Below, piece after piece: positions 2,302-10,525 of a DNA stretch of 11,919 nucleotides. Origin of the DNA: Chloroflexota bacterium (GTDB lineage: Bacteria; Chloroflexota; Anaerolineae; Caldilineales; Caldilineaceae); the NCBI GenBank assembly GCA_003577005.1, contig QEUW01000236.1, positions 1 to 11,919 of the forward strand. The letters run 5' to 3'. The translations under genes and the position numbers were made by a program. Position 1 is the first letter of the stretch; each line of letters opens with the position of its first letter. The notes under the pieces are model-generated. The model did no database searches. It saw only the letters and a program-made list of their open reading frames with translations, and had not been told where the DNA came from.

Positions 2302-2329
2302 TTGACAAACGACAAAAAAAACGTACCAT
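2302..2329 (+). promoter_or_regulatory. Sigma-70-type promoter of the receiver/TrxR-like fusion gene
   Basis: A perfect -35 box TTGACA (2302-2307) and a -10 box TACCAT (2324-2329, four of six consensus bases) are 16 bases apart. Transcription would start near 2336, giving a leader of about 66 bases before the ATG at 2403. The rest of the 2099-2402 gap holds only the stem-loop at 2130-2215. A reading frame at 2103-2369 in this gap has no support as a gene. Confidence 0.6.
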
Positions 2330-2402: not shown

Positions 2403-4064
2403 ATGGCCAAGCCGGTGATCTTTTCTGTCGACGATGACCCCGAAGTGTTGCGGGCAATCGTACGTGACTTGCGCCGCCATTATGGTGACGATTATCGCGT
2501 GATGCGGGCCAGTTCGGGTGAGGAAGCGCTCACCGCACTGCGGCAGCTACAACGCCGCAATGAGCCGGTGGCGCTCTTTCTGGTCGACCAGCGCATGCCC
2601 ACGATGAGCGGCGTCGAATTTATGACCGCAGCCATGCAGCTTTACCCGGATGCCTGCCGCGTCCTGCTGACCGCCTACGCCGACACCGAAGCGGCCATCA
2701 GCGCCATCAACAACGCCGGCGTCCACTATTATCTACTCAAACCGTGGGACCCGCCCGAGGAAAAGCTCTACCCGGTGCTCGATGACCTGCTGGCAGACTG
2801 GCTGGCCAACTACCGGCCACCCTTTGAAGGCATTCGCATTGTAGGCCATCGTTGGTCGCCTACAACGCATGAGCTCAAAGATTTTCTGGCGCGCAACCAG
2901 GTGCCCTACCAATACCTGGACATCGAATTAGACCCTGAAGCGCGGGCTGTGTTGGCGCGCTTCGAGATGAGCGCCGACAAACTGCCGTTGCTCTTCCTGC
3001 CCGACGGCGAGGTGATGGTCGCCCCCAGGCCGGCGGAGGTGGCCGAACGAATCGGGTTGAAACGAAGCGCAGGGCACCAGTTTTATGATCTGGCCATCGT
3101 CGGCGGGGGGCCGGCCGGATTGGCGGCTGCGGTCTATGGCGCTTCAGAAGGATTACGCACAGTGCTTATCGAAAAACACGCAACCGGTGGCCAGGCAGGC
3201 AGCAGTTCCAAGATCGAGAACTATCTGGGCTTCCCCGCCGGTTTGAGCGGGAGTGAACTGGCGCGCCGCGCCACGGCCCAGGCGCGCCGATTTGGCGTTG
3301 AGATCATCGCCCCGCAGCAGGTGGTTAGTGTACGGCTGGAAGGAACCTATCGCATTGTTCAACTGGCCGATGGTAGTGAGATCTCCTGCCATGCGTTGGT
3401 GGTGGCTTCGGGGCTGGACTATCAAAAGCTCGATGCGCCTGGCATCGAACGTCTCACCGGTGCGGGGGTCTATTACGGTGCGTCGCTCAGCGAAGTCTCC
3501 TCCTGCCGCGACGAAGAAGTGTTTGTCATAGGGGCCGGCAACTCGGCTGGGCAGGCAGCGATCTTCCTGACCCAACACGCCTCGCATGTCACCTTGTTGG
3601 TGCGGGGTGATTCACTCGAAGCCAAGATGTCCCAGTACCTCGTCCAACGTATCTACGAACATCCCGCAATCGATGTCAAATTACATTCGGTTGTCACCGC
3701 TGCCCACGGGGAAGATCACCTGGAGGCTGTTACGGTCTGCGATCTAGCAACCAAGCAGGAAAGCCGGCATGAAGCAGCGGCGCTCTTTATCTTTATCGGC
3801 GCAATGCCGTCGACCCAGTGGCTGTGCGGCGTCGTCAAAATGGACAAGTATGGCTTTGTCCTCACCGGGCCAGAGGTGATGGAAAATGGCAAACCACCCG
3901 CCGGCTGGCCGCTGGCGCGCGACCCATTCCTGCTCGAGAGCAGCGTCCCCGGCATCTTTGTGGTCGGTGATGTGCGCGCCAATTCGGTCAAGCGCGTGGC
4001 TTCGGCGGTGGGTGAAGGGTCGATTGCCGTGCAATTTGTCCACCAACATCTGGCGCAGCGATAG
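2403..4064 (+). CDS. Fused response-regulator receiver / thioredoxin-fold / thioredoxin reductase-like FAD-dependent oxidoreductase
   Basis: The protein has 553 residues in three parts. Residues 1-135 form a receiver domain: acidic cluster D10-D12, phosphoacceptor D62 (LFLVDQRMP), T90 and K113 (LLKPW). Residues 142-220 resemble a glutaredoxin/thioredoxin fold, but the active-site position reads WSPTTH instead of CPYC. Residues 227-553 are thioredoxin-reductase-like: FAD motif GGGPAG (234-239), GGQ (262-264), ENYLGFP (272-278), NAD(P)H motif GAGNSAGQAA (377-386), and C-terminal FAD motif GIFVVGDV (517-524). At the catalytic site GVSYCATC becomes GVYYGASL (355-362), so no redox disulfide exists; a lone C368 sits six residues on. 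Such receiver- or cNMP-fused TrxR-like proteins are known but poorly characterised. I infer phosphorylation-gated NAD(P)H oxidation with an unknown acceptor. The start is supported by AGGTGA at 2394-2399, rather close to the ATG. The zinc-finger gene follows after 61 bases. Confidence 0.9.
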   Translation: MAKPVIFSVDDDPEVLRAIVRDLRRHYGDDYRVMRASSGEEALTALRQLQRRNEPVALFLVDQRMPTMSGVEFMTAAMQLYPDACRVLLTAYADTEAAISAINNAGVHYYLLKPWDPPEEKLYPVLDDLLADWLANYRPPFEGIRIVGHRWSPTTHELKDFLARNQVPYQYLDIELDPEARAVLARFEMSADKLPLLFLPDGEVMVAPRPAEVAERIGLKRSAGHQFYDLAIVGGGPAGLAAAVYGASEGLRTVLIEKHATGGQAGSSSKIENYLGFPAGLSGSELARRATAQARRFGVEIIAPQQVVSVRLEGTYRIVQLADGSEISCHALVVASGLDYQKLDAPGIERLTGAGVYYGASLSEVSSCRDEEVFVIGAGNSAGQAAIFLTQHASHVTLLVRGDSLEAKMSQYLVQRIYEHPAIDVKLHSVVTAAHGEDHLEAVTVCDLATKQESRHEAAALFIFIGAMPSTQWLCGVVKMDKYGFVLTGPEVMENGKPPAGWPLARDPFLLESSVPGIFVVGDVRANSVKRVASAVGEGSIAVQFVHQHLAQR

Positions 4065-4068
4065 AGAC

Positions 4069-4098
4069 GATGGACGATAGATGATACCGATGTCCATC
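4069..4098. repeat. Short inverted repeat with heptad-like units between the fusion gene and the zinc-finger gene
   Basis: GATGGAC (4069-4075) and GTCCATC (4092-4098) are perfect 7-bp inverted copies. The left side reads as successive 7-base units TGGACGA, TAGATGA, TACCGAT. It begins five bases after the fusion gene's stop codon, and no T-run follows. The weak seven-base periodicity resembles the clearer array at 4411-4482. Confidence 0.35.
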
Positions 4099-4112
4099 AG
4101 CTCATCAACCCT

Positions 4113-4118
4113 AAAGGA
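4113..4118 (+). promoter_or_regulatory. Ribosome binding site that fixes the zinc-finger protein start at 4126
   Basis: AAAGGA lies seven bases upstream of the ATG at 4126. The longer in-frame start (ATG 4081) has no comparable site, and its extra 15 residues look unlike the zinc-finger family. Confidence 0.7.
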
Positions 4119-4125
4119 ACTTTAC

Positions 4126-4407
4126 ATGAGTTGCCAACACGTGGATCAGATCCAAGAGGTTACACCCAGCGCACAGGGGTGCGAAGATTGTCTTAGGACC
4201 GGCGGCCGCTGGGTACATCTGCGCATCTGCCTGGTCTGTGGTCATGTCGGCTGTTGCGACTCATCGCCCAACCGGCACGCCACCAAACACTTCCACGAAA
4301 CGAGCCACCCGCTCGTCCAGTCGTTCGAGCCGGGCGAAGATTGGGTCTGGTGCTACGTGGATCAGGAAGTGGTGGGCCGGATGGACAAAGGCTGGGAAAA
4401 GGTGTGA
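4126..4407 (+). CDS. UBP-type zinc-finger domain protein
   Basis: This 93-residue protein is almost entirely one ZnF-UBP domain. Candidate zinc ligands are C3 and H5, C19 and C22, C35 and C38, H40, C43, H51, H55/H57 and H61, in the order typical of the family (CxH, CxxC, CxxC, then H-rich HxxxHxH). In eukaryotic deubiquitinases and HDAC6 this domain binds the free C-terminal diglycine of ubiquitin; bacterial stand-alone versions have no established role, and no ubiquitin-like protein is seen here. It sits 61 bases after the receiver/TrxR-like fusion gene on the same strand with no promoter visible between, so the two are probably co-transcribed. From memory, such zinc-finger genes often neighbour FAD-dependent TrxR-like genes in other bacteria, which suggests a partner or substrate relation; I could not check this here. 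Confidence 0.85.
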   Translation: MSCQHVDQIQEVTPSAQGCEDCLRTGGRWVHLRICLVCGHVGCCDSSPNRHATKHFHETSHPLVQSFEPGEDWVWCYVDQEVVGRMDKGWEKV

Positions 4408-4410
4408 TAA

Positions 4411-4482
4411 GTGATGCGTAATCCGTAATGCGTGAATGTGCGCATTACGGATTACGCATCACGGATTACGCACCACGCATGA
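4411..4482. repeat. Heptanucleotide repeat array with a perfect 22-bp inverted repeat
   Basis: Positions 4411-4432 and 4441-4462 are exact reverse complements, with an 8-base loop (4433-4440). The right side consists of six consecutive 7-base units from 4441: CGCATTA, CGGATTA, CGCATCA, CGGATTA, CGCACCA, CGCATGA. The left side holds three units in the opposite direction (TGATGCG, TAATCCG, TAATGCG at 4412-4432). It lies three bases after the zinc-finger gene's stop and ends directly at the TATAAT of lepA. The hairpin could act as a terminator-like barrier between the two units, although no T-run follows. Similar short units occur between genes in some Chloroflexota genomes, as far as I recall. 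Confidence 0.85.
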
Positions 4483-6318: not shown

Positions 6319-6573
6319 CTAGCCATGATCTTCCACAATACCGGCTCGGATCACGGTCTCTCCTCTGTCTCGCTCGACTTCATATCCAATCCAAAACCCG
6401 CGCGTTCCTGCCTTGACAAAAATTTCATAACGTCCAGGTCGTTCGTCCGAACGCAACGCATCTTTTTGATCAGGATTACGCATAATCTCGGCGAGCATGG
6501 TGTGCAATGGAGCCGATTCTTCGCGCAAAGCGTGAAGCAGCGCAATCGCTTCTCTACTCAGATGGAGGCGCAT
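6319..6573 (-). CDS. Type II toxin, RelE/ParE-like
   Basis: This 84-residue protein shows the RelE/ParE pattern. There is a short N-terminal strand plus helices (LSREAIALLHALREE, then LHTMLAEIMRNP), then beta strands with YEIFVKAGTRGFWIGYEV (49-66) and TVIRAGIVED (73-82). Such toxins are mostly ribosome-dependent mRNA endonucleases (RelE) or gyrase inhibitors (ParE); the sequence does not show which. The start at 6573 gives the family's usual N-terminus and a 20-base overlap with the antitoxin gene, implying coupled translation. A longer in-frame start at 6675 would add 34 residues that run in another frame inside the antitoxin gene and look non-conserved. Family membership is from pattern only. 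Confidence 0.6.
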   Translation of the reverse strand: MRLHLSREAIALLHALREESAPLHTMLAEIMRNPDQKDALRSDERPGRYEIFVKAGTRGFWIGYEVERDRGETVIRAGIVEDHG

Positions 6574-6805
6574 ATTCCACGTATTCTCCGGCGCGAATGG
6601 CAGCAAGTTGACGGTCAAATTCGACCATTCTCCGTAGCCGTGCGAGTTCGTTAGCGGTTGCGGTCCATTCATCAACGGACACGAGCACTGCCGCAGGCTT
6701 GCTCCGCTGCGCTAAAAAGACTGGCCCTGCTTTCAACTTTGCGAACATGCTACGATAATCACGCGCCAGATTGGAGACGGGCTCGATCTGTGGAGCTTGT
6801 ATCAT
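6554..6805 (-). CDS. Antitoxin of the Phd/YefM family
   Basis: This 83-residue protein has the Phd/YefM core: an N-terminal DNA-binding half (LARDYRSMFAKLKAGPVFLAQRSKPAAVLVSVDEW, residues 13-47, with the hallmark strand PAAVLVS). The C-terminal helix (NELARLRRMVEFDRQLAAIRAG) would wrap the toxin. Family members neutralise the toxin and repress their own promoter as a toxin-antitoxin complex. The ATG at 6805 has AAAGGG seven bases upstream (6813-6818) and a strong promoter at 6849-6876. The toxin gene follows with a 20-base overlap, in the usual antitoxin-first order. Confidence 0.85.
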   Translation of the reverse strand: MIQAPQIEPVSNLARDYRSMFAKLKAGPVFLAQRSKPAAVLVSVDEWTATANELARLRRMVEFDRQLAAIRAGEYVEYAPPSE

Positions 6806-7506: not shown

Positions 7507-8163
7507 CTACCCCAACCCCGCCCGTCTGGCCCGCACAATTGCCTGCGTTCGATTGGCCACCTGTAACTTGTTGAAGATGTGAGAGATGTGGTTGCCGACC
7601 GTTTTTACGGTGATGTGGAGGGTTGCGGCAATTTCTTGATTGCCATACCCCTGGGCAATCAGGTCGAGTATCTCCCGTTCTCGCTCGCTCAGTTCGGGAA
7701 AAGGCAGCGCCGGTGCAGCCGAGGGCGCGGCAGCATTGCGATTCTGAAAGAGATTCATCAGCCGCCGGGCAATCGCTGGCCCAAAGAGCGCCTCGCCGCC
7801 GGCCACCGCCCGGATCGTCTTGAGCATCTCGGCCTTGTCCGCCCCTTTGAGGATATAGCCCCTGGCCCCGGCGCAGAGGGCGGCAAAAACGGCGTCGTCA
7901 TCCTCCACCATCGTCAGCACGATGATGCCGGTCTCCGGTCTGGCTTGCAAAATTTGCCGCGTCGCCTCGATGCCATTCATCGTCGGCATCTGGATGTCCA
8001 TCAGGATGACATCCGGGTAGAGCGCCGCGGCCTGCGCCATCGCTTCAACGCCGTGGGCCGCACCGCCCACGACGAGCATGTCGCGCACCTTGCCCAATAG
8101 GGCCATGAGTCCTTCGCGGAAAAGGGTGTGGTCATCGACAACCAGAATGCGGATCCGTGTCAT
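7507..8163 (-). CDS. Two-component response regulator, NarL/FixJ (LuxR-type HTH) family
   Basis: This 218-residue protein has the usual length and layout. The receiver domain (4-120) has D10 and D11, phosphoacceptor D56 (VILMDIQMP), T84 and K106 (GYILKG). A linker follows, then a LuxR-type HTH (about 152-212) with [45 protein letters not shown]. It should be phosphorylated by the adjacent kinase and then bind DNA as a dimer; the target genes are not evident. The start at 8163 is chosen because it places the ATG in a TGATG overlap (one shared base) with the kinase stop and gives a canonical receiver N-terminus. A longer frame up to 8388 only shadows the kinase C-terminus. Confidence 0.95.
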
Positions 8164-10352
8164 CACGACGCCTCCGGTGAACTGAGGGGGAGCCTGGCCC
8201 GCACGTGGGTGCCACCGGTCGCGCCGGCTTCGACCAGACAGGCGCCGCCCAACTCCTCGGCCCGTTCGCGCATGGAGATCAATCCAACGCCGGCCTGCAA
8301 CTGGAACGGCAACCCCAGGCCATCGTCGATGATCGTGACTTCCAGTGTCTTGGGCTGGTCGACGCTGACCGCTAGATAGACGTGACACGTGCGCGCCTGG
8401 GCATGGCGGGTAACGTTGGTTAGCGCCTCCAGGACAATGCGATAGGCGGCGACCTCGACGGCCGCCGGCAAAGGCGGCAGAACCGCCGGCGTGGCTGCCA
8501 CCGCAATGCGCAGCGTCTGGTTGGCGCCAGCCAGTTTCGCCGCCTGAATCTGTAGCGCCCCCAACAAGCCCAACTCGTCCAGCGCCGGGGGCCGCAACTG
8601 GTAGATCAATCGCCGGATGTCGGCCACCATCGCCTGGGTCTGCGTCTTCAAGTCGCGCAGTAAAGCCGTGGCCGCGACCGGGTCTGGGGCGGCGCCGCTG
8701 GCTGGATCACCGGCCAATAATTCCAGGGCCTCTTCCAGTTGGAAGCTGTGGCTGGCCAGCGTTGGCCCCAGCCCATCATGCAGATCGCGGCGCAGCCGGC
8801 GTCGCTCTTCCTCGCGGCTGGTGACCAATCTTTCTCGTGAGCGCTGTAAATCGGCTGCCAGACGCGCCGCCTGAGCAGCCACGCCTGCCTGGTGGGCGAT
8901 GTCGGCTAACAAACGCTGGTCGGCTGGGCTAAAGCCCTCGCCCGGCGTGCGTGGCGCGACGATGAGCTGACCGATGATTTCAGCCTGATGAACCAGCGGC
9001 AAAGTCAGGGCCCCGGCCTCGTCAACAATGGATCGCCGTTCAGCGCCCTGGCCGGTGCAGTGCTCGGCAATCGGTTTGAAGTGGCCGCCTTCGTTCAAGG
9101 CAATGGCCACATAGGGCAACCGCAGCGCCTGGGCCACTGTCTCCGCGATGATGTCGAGCAGGTTGTCGGTCGCTAGCGTCGCCTCCAGGCGCTGGGCCAA
9201 CCGGGAGAGGACTGCGTAGGGGTCGTCTCGCTCGCCATACATCAGCCGGTTGACTGCGCGTTGCAGACGTTCTCGCAGCGGCTGCAAGAGAAGCGCCACC
9301 AGGCCTGTACCCAGCAGGGAGATGAATAAGGAACCGCGCACGTGCAACAACATGCCGAGTGAGCCTACCACGAGCATATAGATGCCCACGACAATGGCCG
9401 TTAGCGAGCCGTATACCAGCGTACGGTTGATGATGACATCAATGTCCCACAGCCGGTAGCGCCATACGGCAATGGTCAATGAAACAGGCAGGATCACCAG
9501 AGAAAGGCCCCACAGCGCTGAACTCACTGGCATCCACCAGGGGGTCGGCTGGCCGGGTGGCAGGTTAAAAGAGAGCGTGTGAGGGATGCTAAGCAGCACC
9601 ACCCCAGCCATCCAAAAGGTGAAACCCGAAACCACCCACTTTGTTTGCTGTCGCTCGGTTGGCGTGGACATGCGCCGGTAGCGGTAGATTTGGGCATAGA
9701 TAGCCAGCCCCATCGTCAGCAACCACAAGAACCCGCCAAGATACAGCCAGACGCCGTCAAAATCCATCCACCAGTTGGCTGGGAGGAAAAAAACAATGAA
9801 AGGAATCCATGCCAGCGCGCCGCCAGCCAGCCAGCGAGTCCAGGCAGGGACAAATCGTCCATTGGGGAAGAGGACTAACAGCCAGACCGTCGGAATGGTG
9901 AAGAAAAGGTGGTGGAACCGGCTGGAGATGTGGAAGGCTGCTCCGAATATGAGTCGTTCAAGATTCTCCAGCGGGCCGGCGATGCCAATGGCGTAAACAA
10001 GCAGATAAAACGAGACGAAGAGGGCGATCCGGTCACCCGGCTTGCGCCAGAAGAGCAAGCCTGCCAGGACCCAGCACACCAGAACGGCGCTTAACGAGGA
10101 GAAGCCGATAATCAATTCGAGCACGACCCGCAGCGGGGCTGGCATCTGCGCAGGGGGATTGACCTGAGCCGCCCGGTCAAGGTTGGCAAGGTAGCCGGGA
10201 ATGGAAGCGACCAGAATGACCAGCATCATGACCATCACCGTCACCCACATCCCCTGGATGAGGGGATGCCAGCGGCCGGCCAGGATTCCGCCTCTCTTTT
10301 CTGGCAAGCCGGAGCTTGCGTCCAGTTTTGGGACGATAGGTTGCGCGTCCAA
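8163..10352 (-). CDS. Membrane sensor histidine kinase (HisKA_3 type) with GAF-like domain
   Basis: The protein has 729 residues if it starts at TTG 10352. In that numbering: multiple hydrophobic segments between about 35 and 360 (roughly eight to ten helices, including VTVMVMMLVILVASIPGYLA), the linker RYRLWDIDVIINRTLVYG (298-315), a GAF-like domain (about 385-500), the HisKA_3 helix with phosphoacceptor H525 (LRRDLHDGLGP), and the HATPase_c domain with N646 (ALTNVTRHA), DDGLG (676-680) and GVGLISMRER. It autophosphorylates and passes phosphate to the regulator encoded next (TGATG overlap). The membrane layout recalls ComP-like kinases; the signal is unknown. Start: TTG 10352 has AGAGGA six bases upstream and a possible -10 upstream. 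The alternative GTG 10415 adds 21 basic residues (750 in total) but has an AAAGGGG almost touching the codon, and it would lie upstream of the proposed transcription start. Confidence 0.93.
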   Translation of the reverse strand: MDAQPIVPKLDASSGLPEKRGGILAGRWHPLIQGMWVTVMVMMLVILVASIPGYLANLDRAAQVNPPAQMPAPLRVVLELIIGFSSLSAVLVCWVLAGLLFWRKPGDRIALFVSFYLLVYAIGIAGPLENLERLIFGAAFHISSRFHHLFFTIPTVWLLVLFPNGRFVPAWTRWLAGGALAWIPFIVFFLPANWWMDFDGVWLYLGGFLWLLTMGLAIYAQIYRYRRMSTPTERQQTKWVVSGFTFWMAGVVLLSIPHTLSFNLPPGQPTPWWMPVSSALWGLSLVILPVSLTIAVWRYRLWDIDVIINRTLVYGSLTAIVVGIYMLVVGSLGMLLHVRGSLFISLLGTGLVALLLQPLRERLQRAVNRLMYGERDDPYAVLSRLAQRLEATLATDNLLDIIAETVAQALRLPYVAIALNEGGHFKPIAEHCTGQGAERRSIVDEAGALTLPLVHQAEIIGQLIVAPRTPGEGFSPADQRLLADIAHQAGVAAQAARLAADLQRSRERLVTSREEERRRLRRDLHDGLGPTLASHSFQLEEALELLAGDPASGAAPDPVAATALLRDLKTQTQAMVADIRRLIYQLRPPALDELGLLGALQIQAAKLAGANQTLRIAVAATPAVLPPLPAAVEVAAYRIVLEALTNVTRHAQARTCHVYLAVSVDQPKTLEVTIIDDGLGLPFQLQAGVGLISMRERAEELGGACLVEAGATGGTHVRARLPLSSPEAS

Positions 10353-10358
10353 TGCTGT

Positions 10359-10364
10359 TCCTCT
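10359..10364 (-). promoter_or_regulatory. Ribosome binding site supporting a TTG start for the kinase
   Basis: AGAGGA (minus strand) lies six bases before the TTG at 10352. A second AGAGGAAC occurs 11 bases further upstream. This favours the TTG over the GTG at 10415. Confidence 0.55.
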
Positions 10365-10406
10365 TTTGTTCCTCTTGGACGGTCTGCGCCGAGTGGCTTG
10401 TGCAAT

Positions 10407-10412
10407 AGTATA
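10407..10412 (-). promoter_or_regulatory. Possible -10 box for the two-component operon
   Basis: TATACT on the minus strand would start a transcript near 10400 with a leader of about 48 bases to the TTG. No good -35 box is found about 17 bases upstream, so this is weak. The rest of the gap (10413-10622) holds the stem-loop at 10526-10564 and no gene that I can support. Confidence 0.3.
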
Positions 10413-10525
10413 CACCCCTTTGTTGAATTTTGTTCGAGTTGATTTACCACCCCCACGACTGTTTTATTTCGTAAACAGCAGCCCTCATGCCCCTACTGTT
10501 GCCGAAACAATTTCTGAATCCTCAT

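Follow-up and report, generated by a model that had tools for sequence, protein, structure and literature searches.

A receiver-bearing, CxxC-less thioredoxin reductase-like flavoprotein and a stand-alone zf-UBP zinc finger as candidate members of a bacterial signaling-redox module

In this study, we analyzed two neighboring plus-strand genes in an 11,919-nt stretch of DNA from a Chloroflexota bacterium (assembly GCA_003577005.1, contig QEUW01000236.1; the whole stretch is called the window below), which encode a flavoprotein with a receiver (REC) domain fused to a thioredoxin reductase (TrxR)-like domain and a stand-alone zinc finger of the zf-UBP family, familiar mainly from work on ubiquitin. 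We lean towards the view that both genes belong to a signaling-redox module that is widespread in bacteria and contains a kinase-switched, acceptor-reducing flavoenzyme. Two-component control of the cysteine-less flavoprotein appears well supported by the sequence comparisons and is likely because a kinase partner accompanies most of its relatives. The more specific proposal, that a histidine kinase (HK) phosphorylates the flavoenzyme and that the zinc finger, whose pocket is altered yet remains aromatic, presents its acceptor or target, is one that we consider unlikely in this exact form. The main features are:

2403..4064, plus strand: REC / glutaredoxin-like / TrxR-like flavoprotein, 553 aa (open reading frame (ORF) and Pfam)
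2418..2756, plus strand: receiver domain, aa 6-118, with phospho-acceptor D62, T90 and K113 (PF00072, Response_reg, E 3e-15)
2826..3062, plus strand: degenerate glutaredoxin/thioredoxin-fold domain, aa ~142-220, with no active-site Cys (PF00462 and predicted fold)
3084..4061, plus strand: TrxR-like FAD/NAD(P)H domain without CxxC, aa 228-553
4126..4407, plus strand: stand-alone zf-UBP zinc finger, 93 aa (PF02148, E 6e-16, 58.9 bits against a cut-off of 22.7)

First, the domain content of the flavoprotein bore out most of what an initial annotation, made from the sequence alone, had said of it. The receiver, whose closest noted PDB relative was the HupR receiver (2jk1), had been called phosphorylatable, and D62, T90 and K113 were indeed kept in all 95 aligned REC domains (the window's included), with D10 in 94 of the 95. 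The degenerate domain that follows was absent from that annotation; its match to Glutaredoxin PF00462 was weak (aa 156-199, E 0.0018, 18.9 bits against a 22.9-bit cut-off), and a structure model of the flavoprotein gave the predicted order beta-alpha-beta-alpha-beta-beta-alpha for aa ~142-220. In the C-terminal part (Pyr_redox_2, aa 228-539, E 6e-34), the glycine motifs for FAD (GGGPAG) and pyridine nucleotide (GAGNSAGQ) were intact and kept among relatives, so the FAD binding on which the initial annotation depended is probably retained. The reported lack of a redox CxxC also held, none being found in the glutaredoxin-like and TrxR-like parts of 143 sequences (the window's and 142 relatives from the fetched loci). 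The HRRxxxR motif is a mark of NADPH preference; the stretch that carries it in the canonical TrxR of locus L069 reads VRGDSL in the window flavoprotein. The five REC types compared have VRGxSL or IRGxSL there, and sister types with a cyclic-nucleotide-binding (CNB) domain have VRG or VRR/ARR. The score did not reach the cut-off for either TIGR01292 (TrxB equivalog, 219 bits against 343) or TIGR03140 (AhpF, 157 bits against 503). By these sequence measures, the flavoprotein is outside thioredoxin reductase proper, though the FAD/NAD(P) binding fold is present. The VIA table on the flavoprotein was effectively a test of aa 224-553.

The neighborhood comparisons drew on 80 zf-UBP loci from bacterial and archaeal genomes of many phyla (the best 80 of at least 592, not a random sample) and on samples of 201 Chloroflexota genomes (zf-UBP in 44; relatives of the flavoprotein, P0001, at E up to 1e-60 in at least 57), 246 Actinomycetota genomes (zf-UBP in 56; P0001-like genes at E up to 1e-80 in at least 49) and 346 genomes of the class of locus L005 (G001 class; Aggregatilineales, probably Anaerolineae; P0001-like genes at E up to 1e-150 in at least 36). 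The phylum labels of the samples follow loci L005 and L034, and the P0001-like positives are lower bounds, since only the best four to seven candidates per genome were scored in those searches. Regions were fetched for 60/75 P0001-like places in Actinomycetota, 20/61 in Chloroflexota and 36/39 in the G001 class (the remaining three were already included). The 116 annotated regions comprised 85 REC1, 15 REC2, 9 CNB-TrxR and 7 others. A locus counts as REC1 if its REC shares 50% identity or more with the window's, so that this class is defined by likeness to the query; one member, L104, was assigned by hand, its REC being off the contig. REC regions less than 50% identical to the window's form REC2 (L141, L142, L144, L154, L156-L164, L167 and L203). 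Less than 3 kb on one or both sides was spanned by 24 of the 85 REC1 regions.

Second, a more constant partner of the flavoprotein than zf-UBP, and one that the initial annotation did not contain, was a histidine kinase that is soluble and whose N-terminal domain has the cyclic-nucleotide-binding fold (CNB-HK). With matches counted above 100 bits, it lay within 3 kb on either strand at 71/85 REC1 loci (Chloroflexota 15/17, Actinomycetota 31/33, G001 class 25/35) and within 300 nt on the same strand at 63/85 (13/17, 31/33 and 19/35, respectively). Where at least 3 kb was available on both sides (61 REC1 loci), 53 had it (10/12, 25/25 and 18/24). The two Actinomycetota misses, L118 and L131, are regions cut off just past the gene, where part of a kinase match is still visible. 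Annotated plasmid records with REC-TrxR showed an 'ATP-binding protein' directly next in four of five cases, the fifth having a transposase gene and a channel gene in between; Pfam detected both cNMP_binding and HATPase_c in 8/8 kinases scanned, including those of four plasmid records. Overlaps of 4 nt join REC-TrxR, kinase and zinc finger genes in Streptomyces fungicidicus, and REC-TrxR and kinase genes in Deinococcus and Caballeronia. Among 90 kinase matches, the H-box HExxN was present in 85 and DxGxG in 86; a relaxed N-box pattern matched 81 (a narrower one 0/90). Because the phosphorylation site is invariant and the kinase boxes are kept, phosphotransfer from kinase to receiver is the natural reading. 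In neighbor clustering, a 12-locus and an 8-locus cluster proved, in the representatives L118 and L108, to be opposite-strand frames of REC-TrxR and kinase, and another 8-locus cluster was zf-UBP itself.

In the Actinomycetota loci L108-L111, a single REC-TrxR gene is followed by two or three tandem CNB-HK genes, an arrangement that may represent several sensors feeding one output.

Third, adjacency of flavoprotein and zinc finger, which the initial annotation had observed in one place and linked by inference, recurred across phyla. A zf-UBP gene lay within 3 kb at 22/85 REC1 loci (Chloroflexota 2/17, Actinomycetota 12/33, G001 class 8/35), or at 15 of the 61 loci with at least 3 kb on both sides (0/12, 12/25 and 3/24). 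This is above chance; the 12 Actinomycetota cases compare with 0.05 expected from zf-UBP counts and genome sizes. The order and strand seen in the window, flavoprotein then finger, were found in L091, L171, L174, L179 and L189, with the kinase next after the pair in L091, L174 and L189. Nineteen of the best 80 zf-UBP loci have a P0001-like TrxR in the fetched flanks, and two more, L024 and L069, have a canonical TrxR. Loci where the genes are no more than about 110 nt apart include L034, L051, L057, L060, L061, L066, L067, L070, L071, L073 and L076. The two genes also co-occurred at the genome level, by p values that ignore ancestry and genome size: zf-UBP was present in 40/49 P0001-positive Actinomycetota genomes vs 16/197 others (p 2e-24) and in 24/57 P0001-positive Chloroflexota genomes vs 20/144 others (p 3e-5). 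With REC1 genomes only, where five Chloroflexota and one Actinomycetota partial-match genomes were set to REC1 by eye, the figures were 23/31 in Actinomycetota (p 5e-11) and 15/20 in Chloroflexota (p 1e-7). In the survey that had also been suggested for flavoproteins fused to a cyclic-nucleotide domain, zf-UBP was near CNB-TrxR at 2/9 loci.

These data have to be weighed against the explanation that zf-UBP is a mere regulon neighbor, a member of a general stress set whose genes are shuffled as a group while the two products have no contact, physical or functional. In favor of this, the finger stands in either order relative to the flavoprotein and at varying distances, following the kinase in 10/12 Actinomycetota REC1 loci that have it. 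It also occurs near canonical, CATC-bearing TrxR genes (83 nt away in L069, 1.8 kb in L024), has thioredoxin, chaperones and an MFS gene among its neighbors elsewhere, and makes up the C-terminal domain of Kef-type antiporters (Na_H_Exchanger + TrkA_N) in L003, L025 and L058. On the other hand, the 4-nt overlap coupling in Streptomyces, the fact that adjacency extends to several phyla and is seen with REC and CNB architectures alike, and the strong co-occurrence argue for a closer tie. We regard mere regulon membership as a serious alternative that falls somewhat short of probable.

With regard to the finger itself, PF02148 agreed with the stand-alone zinc finger described initially 3' of the flavoprotein gene. 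Its closest solved structure is that of R. palustris RPA1320 (2ida), with which it shares 61% identity across 82 columns, and the predicted model was nearest to 2ida and the HDAC6 zinc finger. The probable zinc ligands, as predicted, are C3, H5, C19, C22, C35, C38, C43/C44, H51, H55, H61, C76 and D79, which we presume form three zinc sites by comparison with HDAC6. Of these, C19, C22, C35, C38, C43, H51 and H55 are invariant in aligned fingers, H61 is nearly so, and most fingers retain C3, H5, C76 and D79. The initial annotation had proposed redox chemistry on the C-terminus of a protein or peptide, and this part of its reading was not supported, in contrast to two-component control, which is likely. 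In HDAC6, the R1155A/Y1184A double change abolishes key contacts to the terminal glycine, according to the available part of the report (PMC10424181). Pairwise alignment revealed no Arg at finger positions 44-48, where R1155 aligns, in any of 111 bacterial fingers. The position of Y1184 (finger Y77) held Tyr in 94, Phe in 16 and Ile in one, and the pocket tryptophans were kept (W29 in 110/111, W75 in 100/111). H31 was found in 109/111 fingers and R33 in 111/111; R33 could substitute for the missing pocket Arg, or both residues could serve a different ligand. Because of the antiporter fusions and a chaperone cluster on a plasmid of Rhodococcus sp. YL-1 (L085; dnaK-grpE-dnaJ-cbpM-clpB-trxA-zf-UBP-CNB-TrxR, in which zf-UBP overlaps both flanking genes), a role in stress or the response to electrophiles is plausible. 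Long zf-UBP ORFs in L002, L020, L029 and L056 were rejected, as on reading they look like chance open frames.

A sister form of the flavoprotein sheds light on its chemistry. In CNB-TrxR, a CNB domain is fused directly to the same glutaredoxin-like and TrxR-like core, sometimes beside zf-UBP; none of the nine CNB-TrxR loci had a CNB-HK, and one of the seven other loci had zf-UBP. The direct fusion suggests that one kind of sensor has been coupled to one kind of enzyme by two different routes. Such proteins are annotated as 'cyclic nucleotide-binding domain-containing thioredoxin-disulfide reductase'. One of them, ATII-TrxR, contained 1.87 mol FAD per mol native enzyme, used NADPH and NADH when purified, and reduced DTNB and thioredoxin, and its authors named Cys206-Cys223 and Cys376-Cys467 as its centers (PMC6544261, as far as the accessible text goes). 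It combines a CNB domain with an FAD/NAD(P) domain, and its relatives in the fetched loci share the CxxC-less core; it differs from the window's protein in that the CNB domain is fused directly, in place of a REC and a separate CNB-HK.

Two further explanations concern this chemistry. The flavoprotein might be a non-catalytic redox sensor, with the state of oxygen or of the NAD(P)H/NAD(P)+ pair read out by FAD and relayed back via the receiver to the kinase or another target. The loss of CxxC throughout while both glycine motifs were kept, and the N-terminal placement of REC next to the degenerate thioredoxin fold, fit this idea; however, the conservation of the flavin and nucleotide core is enzyme-like, and the relative ATII-TrxR turned over DTNB with both NADPH and NADH (PMC6544261, in part), so that we find it doubtful. 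A true thioredoxin (disulfide) reductase using non-CxxC cysteines, as proposed for ATII-TrxR on the strength of its thioredoxin and DTNB reduction and named Cys centers, seems quite improbable here: a Cys at window position 368 was kept in 20/20 matched CNB-type sequences, but was missing in 51/90 matched REC1 and 14/15 REC2, and both the universal absence of CxxC and the low TIGR01292 score speak against it. Cys368, which an earlier 57-sequence alignment had shown as at least 90% conserved, was present in 39/90 REC1, 20/20 CNB, 1/15 REC2 and 5/11 other matched sequences (six further REC1 sequences and one CNB-type sequence were unmatched for this pattern). A catalytic single Cys at this position was rejected as a family feature because it is absent from those 51 REC1 sequences.

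We therefore return to the kinase-switched, acceptor-reducing flavoenzyme. In this model, the neighboring CNB-HK would phosphorylate the receiver at D62. The receiver would then move with respect to the flavin site, as would the degenerate thioredoxin-fold domain, and this would toggle the NAD(P)H-oxidizing enzyme on or off allosterically. Because the flavoprotein has no CxxC of its own, direct flavin-to-acceptor transfer is the simplest chemistry: electrons would go straight from FAD to a docked external acceptor, as in a diaphorase, and not via an own disulfide. We picture the zf-UBP protein as a small partner in the same response, possibly a docking or target-recognition piece, and the chaperone, thioredoxin and Kef-type contexts suggest stress as the setting. 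If the finger does present the acceptor or target, as in the more specific proposal, flavin electron transfer would be the direct output of a two-component system, and the zf-UBP fold would be used in bacterial redox signaling, unconnected with ubiquitin. There appears to be little work on response regulators that are themselves redox enzymes, and the literature looked at offered a solved structure of a bacterial zf-UBP protein but no function for such proteins. The unit of sensor kinase, flavoprotein and zinc finger, together with its fused sister form, provides an experimental handle with natural variants that can be compared.

Several observations weigh against this model. No CNB-HK match was found in the window, and its kinase would therefore sit elsewhere in the genome; 14/85 REC1 loci, some on short contigs, had no kinase within 3 kb, and the 15 REC2 loci, with diverged receivers, had neither CNB-HK nor zf-UBP. 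The finger was not within 3 kb at 63/85 REC1 loci, many zf-UBP genes lie elsewhere, and the co-occurrence statistics may carry a bias from genome size and ancestry, as noted above. As the cassette of cAMP-binding CNB domains we took the phosphate-binding pattern GE-x-A-L...R-x-A-S/T, which by strict matching was present in only 18/82 kinases and 0/18 CNB-TrxR; control of the module by cAMP was thus not adopted. Finally, thioredoxin reduction by ATII-TrxR misfits a pure diaphorase without cysteines of its own (PMC6544261, in part).

Comparison with known systems indicated that REC-TrxR and CNB-TrxR fusions are already known. TrxR-like ferredoxin/flavodoxin-NADP reductase (FNR2, 8c16) has 22% identity to the flavoprotein and lacks a REC or glutaredoxin-like domain. 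Low-molecular-weight thioredoxin reductase (TrxB) differs in that the flavoprotein has no CATC, a changed HRRxxxR stretch, and extra REC and glutaredoxin-like domains. AhpF resembles it in having a thioredoxin-fold part N-terminal to the TrxR domain (Foldseek aligned 546-595 columns, but with a root-mean-square deviation of 18-28 A), whereas the flavoprotein has no CxxC in either part, one degenerate glutaredoxin-like domain and an added REC. The zinc fingers of RPA1320 (2ida, listed as a hypothetical protein) and HDAC6 are of the same family and fold, and of the C-terminus pocket of HDAC6 the bacterial fingers keep the Trp and Tyr positions but not the Arg. REC-TrxR fusions are in print (PMC5847659): by their description, they have the same REC + TrxR-like architecture and are archaeal, and the accessible part of that description does not mention a mechanism, a kinase partner or a zinc finger. 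Among the top matches in open-licence literature, no description of a REC-TrxR, CNB-HK and zf-UBP module was found, and the available parts of PMC4868304, PMC4506424 and PMC9584953 held nothing bearing on it.

The DNA around the two genes carries the following signals:

2302..2329, plus strand: promoter-like TTGACA-16-TACCAT 5' of the flavoprotein gene (10/12 consensus matches)
4113..4118, plus strand: AAAGGA, ribosome-binding-site-like, 7 nt 5' of ATG 4126 (read from the sequence)
4404..4469, plus strand: 29-nt inverted repeat, located between the zf-UBP gene and lepA and forming a 23-bp stem when folded as RNA

The ORF list starts zf-UBP at ATG 4081. We considered ATG 4126 the better start because of the AAAGGA 7 nt upstream and its agreement with the starts of aligned relatives, an agreement that is partly built in, as the relatives' stretches were cut by match to the 4126 form. 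The protein is thus probably 93 aa long, with an intergenic gap of 61 nt. A sequence scan revealed no plus-strand promoter-like site between the two genes, and hence no sign of the separate promoters that would count against the link proposed in the initial annotation. The two promoter-like sites in the region compare with 0.9 +/- 1.1 in shuffles, which is weak evidence. A second inverted repeat (23 nt) overlaps the 29-nt one, the two together covering 4404-4476, and the region folds as RNA at -44.1 kcal/mol (z -7.85). It is possible that the repeat at 4404-4469 marks the end of the transcription unit; no T-run follows it and the terminator scan did not call it, and the repeats at 4404-4476 are possibly a small repeat element and not a standard terminator. 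Rfam gave no match at the gathering score.

Elsewhere in the window, a minus-strand kinase and regulator pair was considered as the receiver's partner:

7507-8388, minus strand: Response_reg + GerE regulator, overlapped by the kinase ORF
8163-10415, minus strand: HisKA_3 + GAF histidine kinase (Pfam)

This pair (7507-10415) was not adopted because the kinase has no CNB match and overlaps its own regulator. PADLOC gave no match to anti-phage defense. Overlapping small ORFs at 6319-6805 on the minus strand form a candidate toxin-antitoxin pair; one of them had no Pfam match, and the upstream one (6554-6805, minus strand) had a weak Phd/YefM antitoxin match (E 4e-5, 23.7 bits against a 29.8 cut-off).

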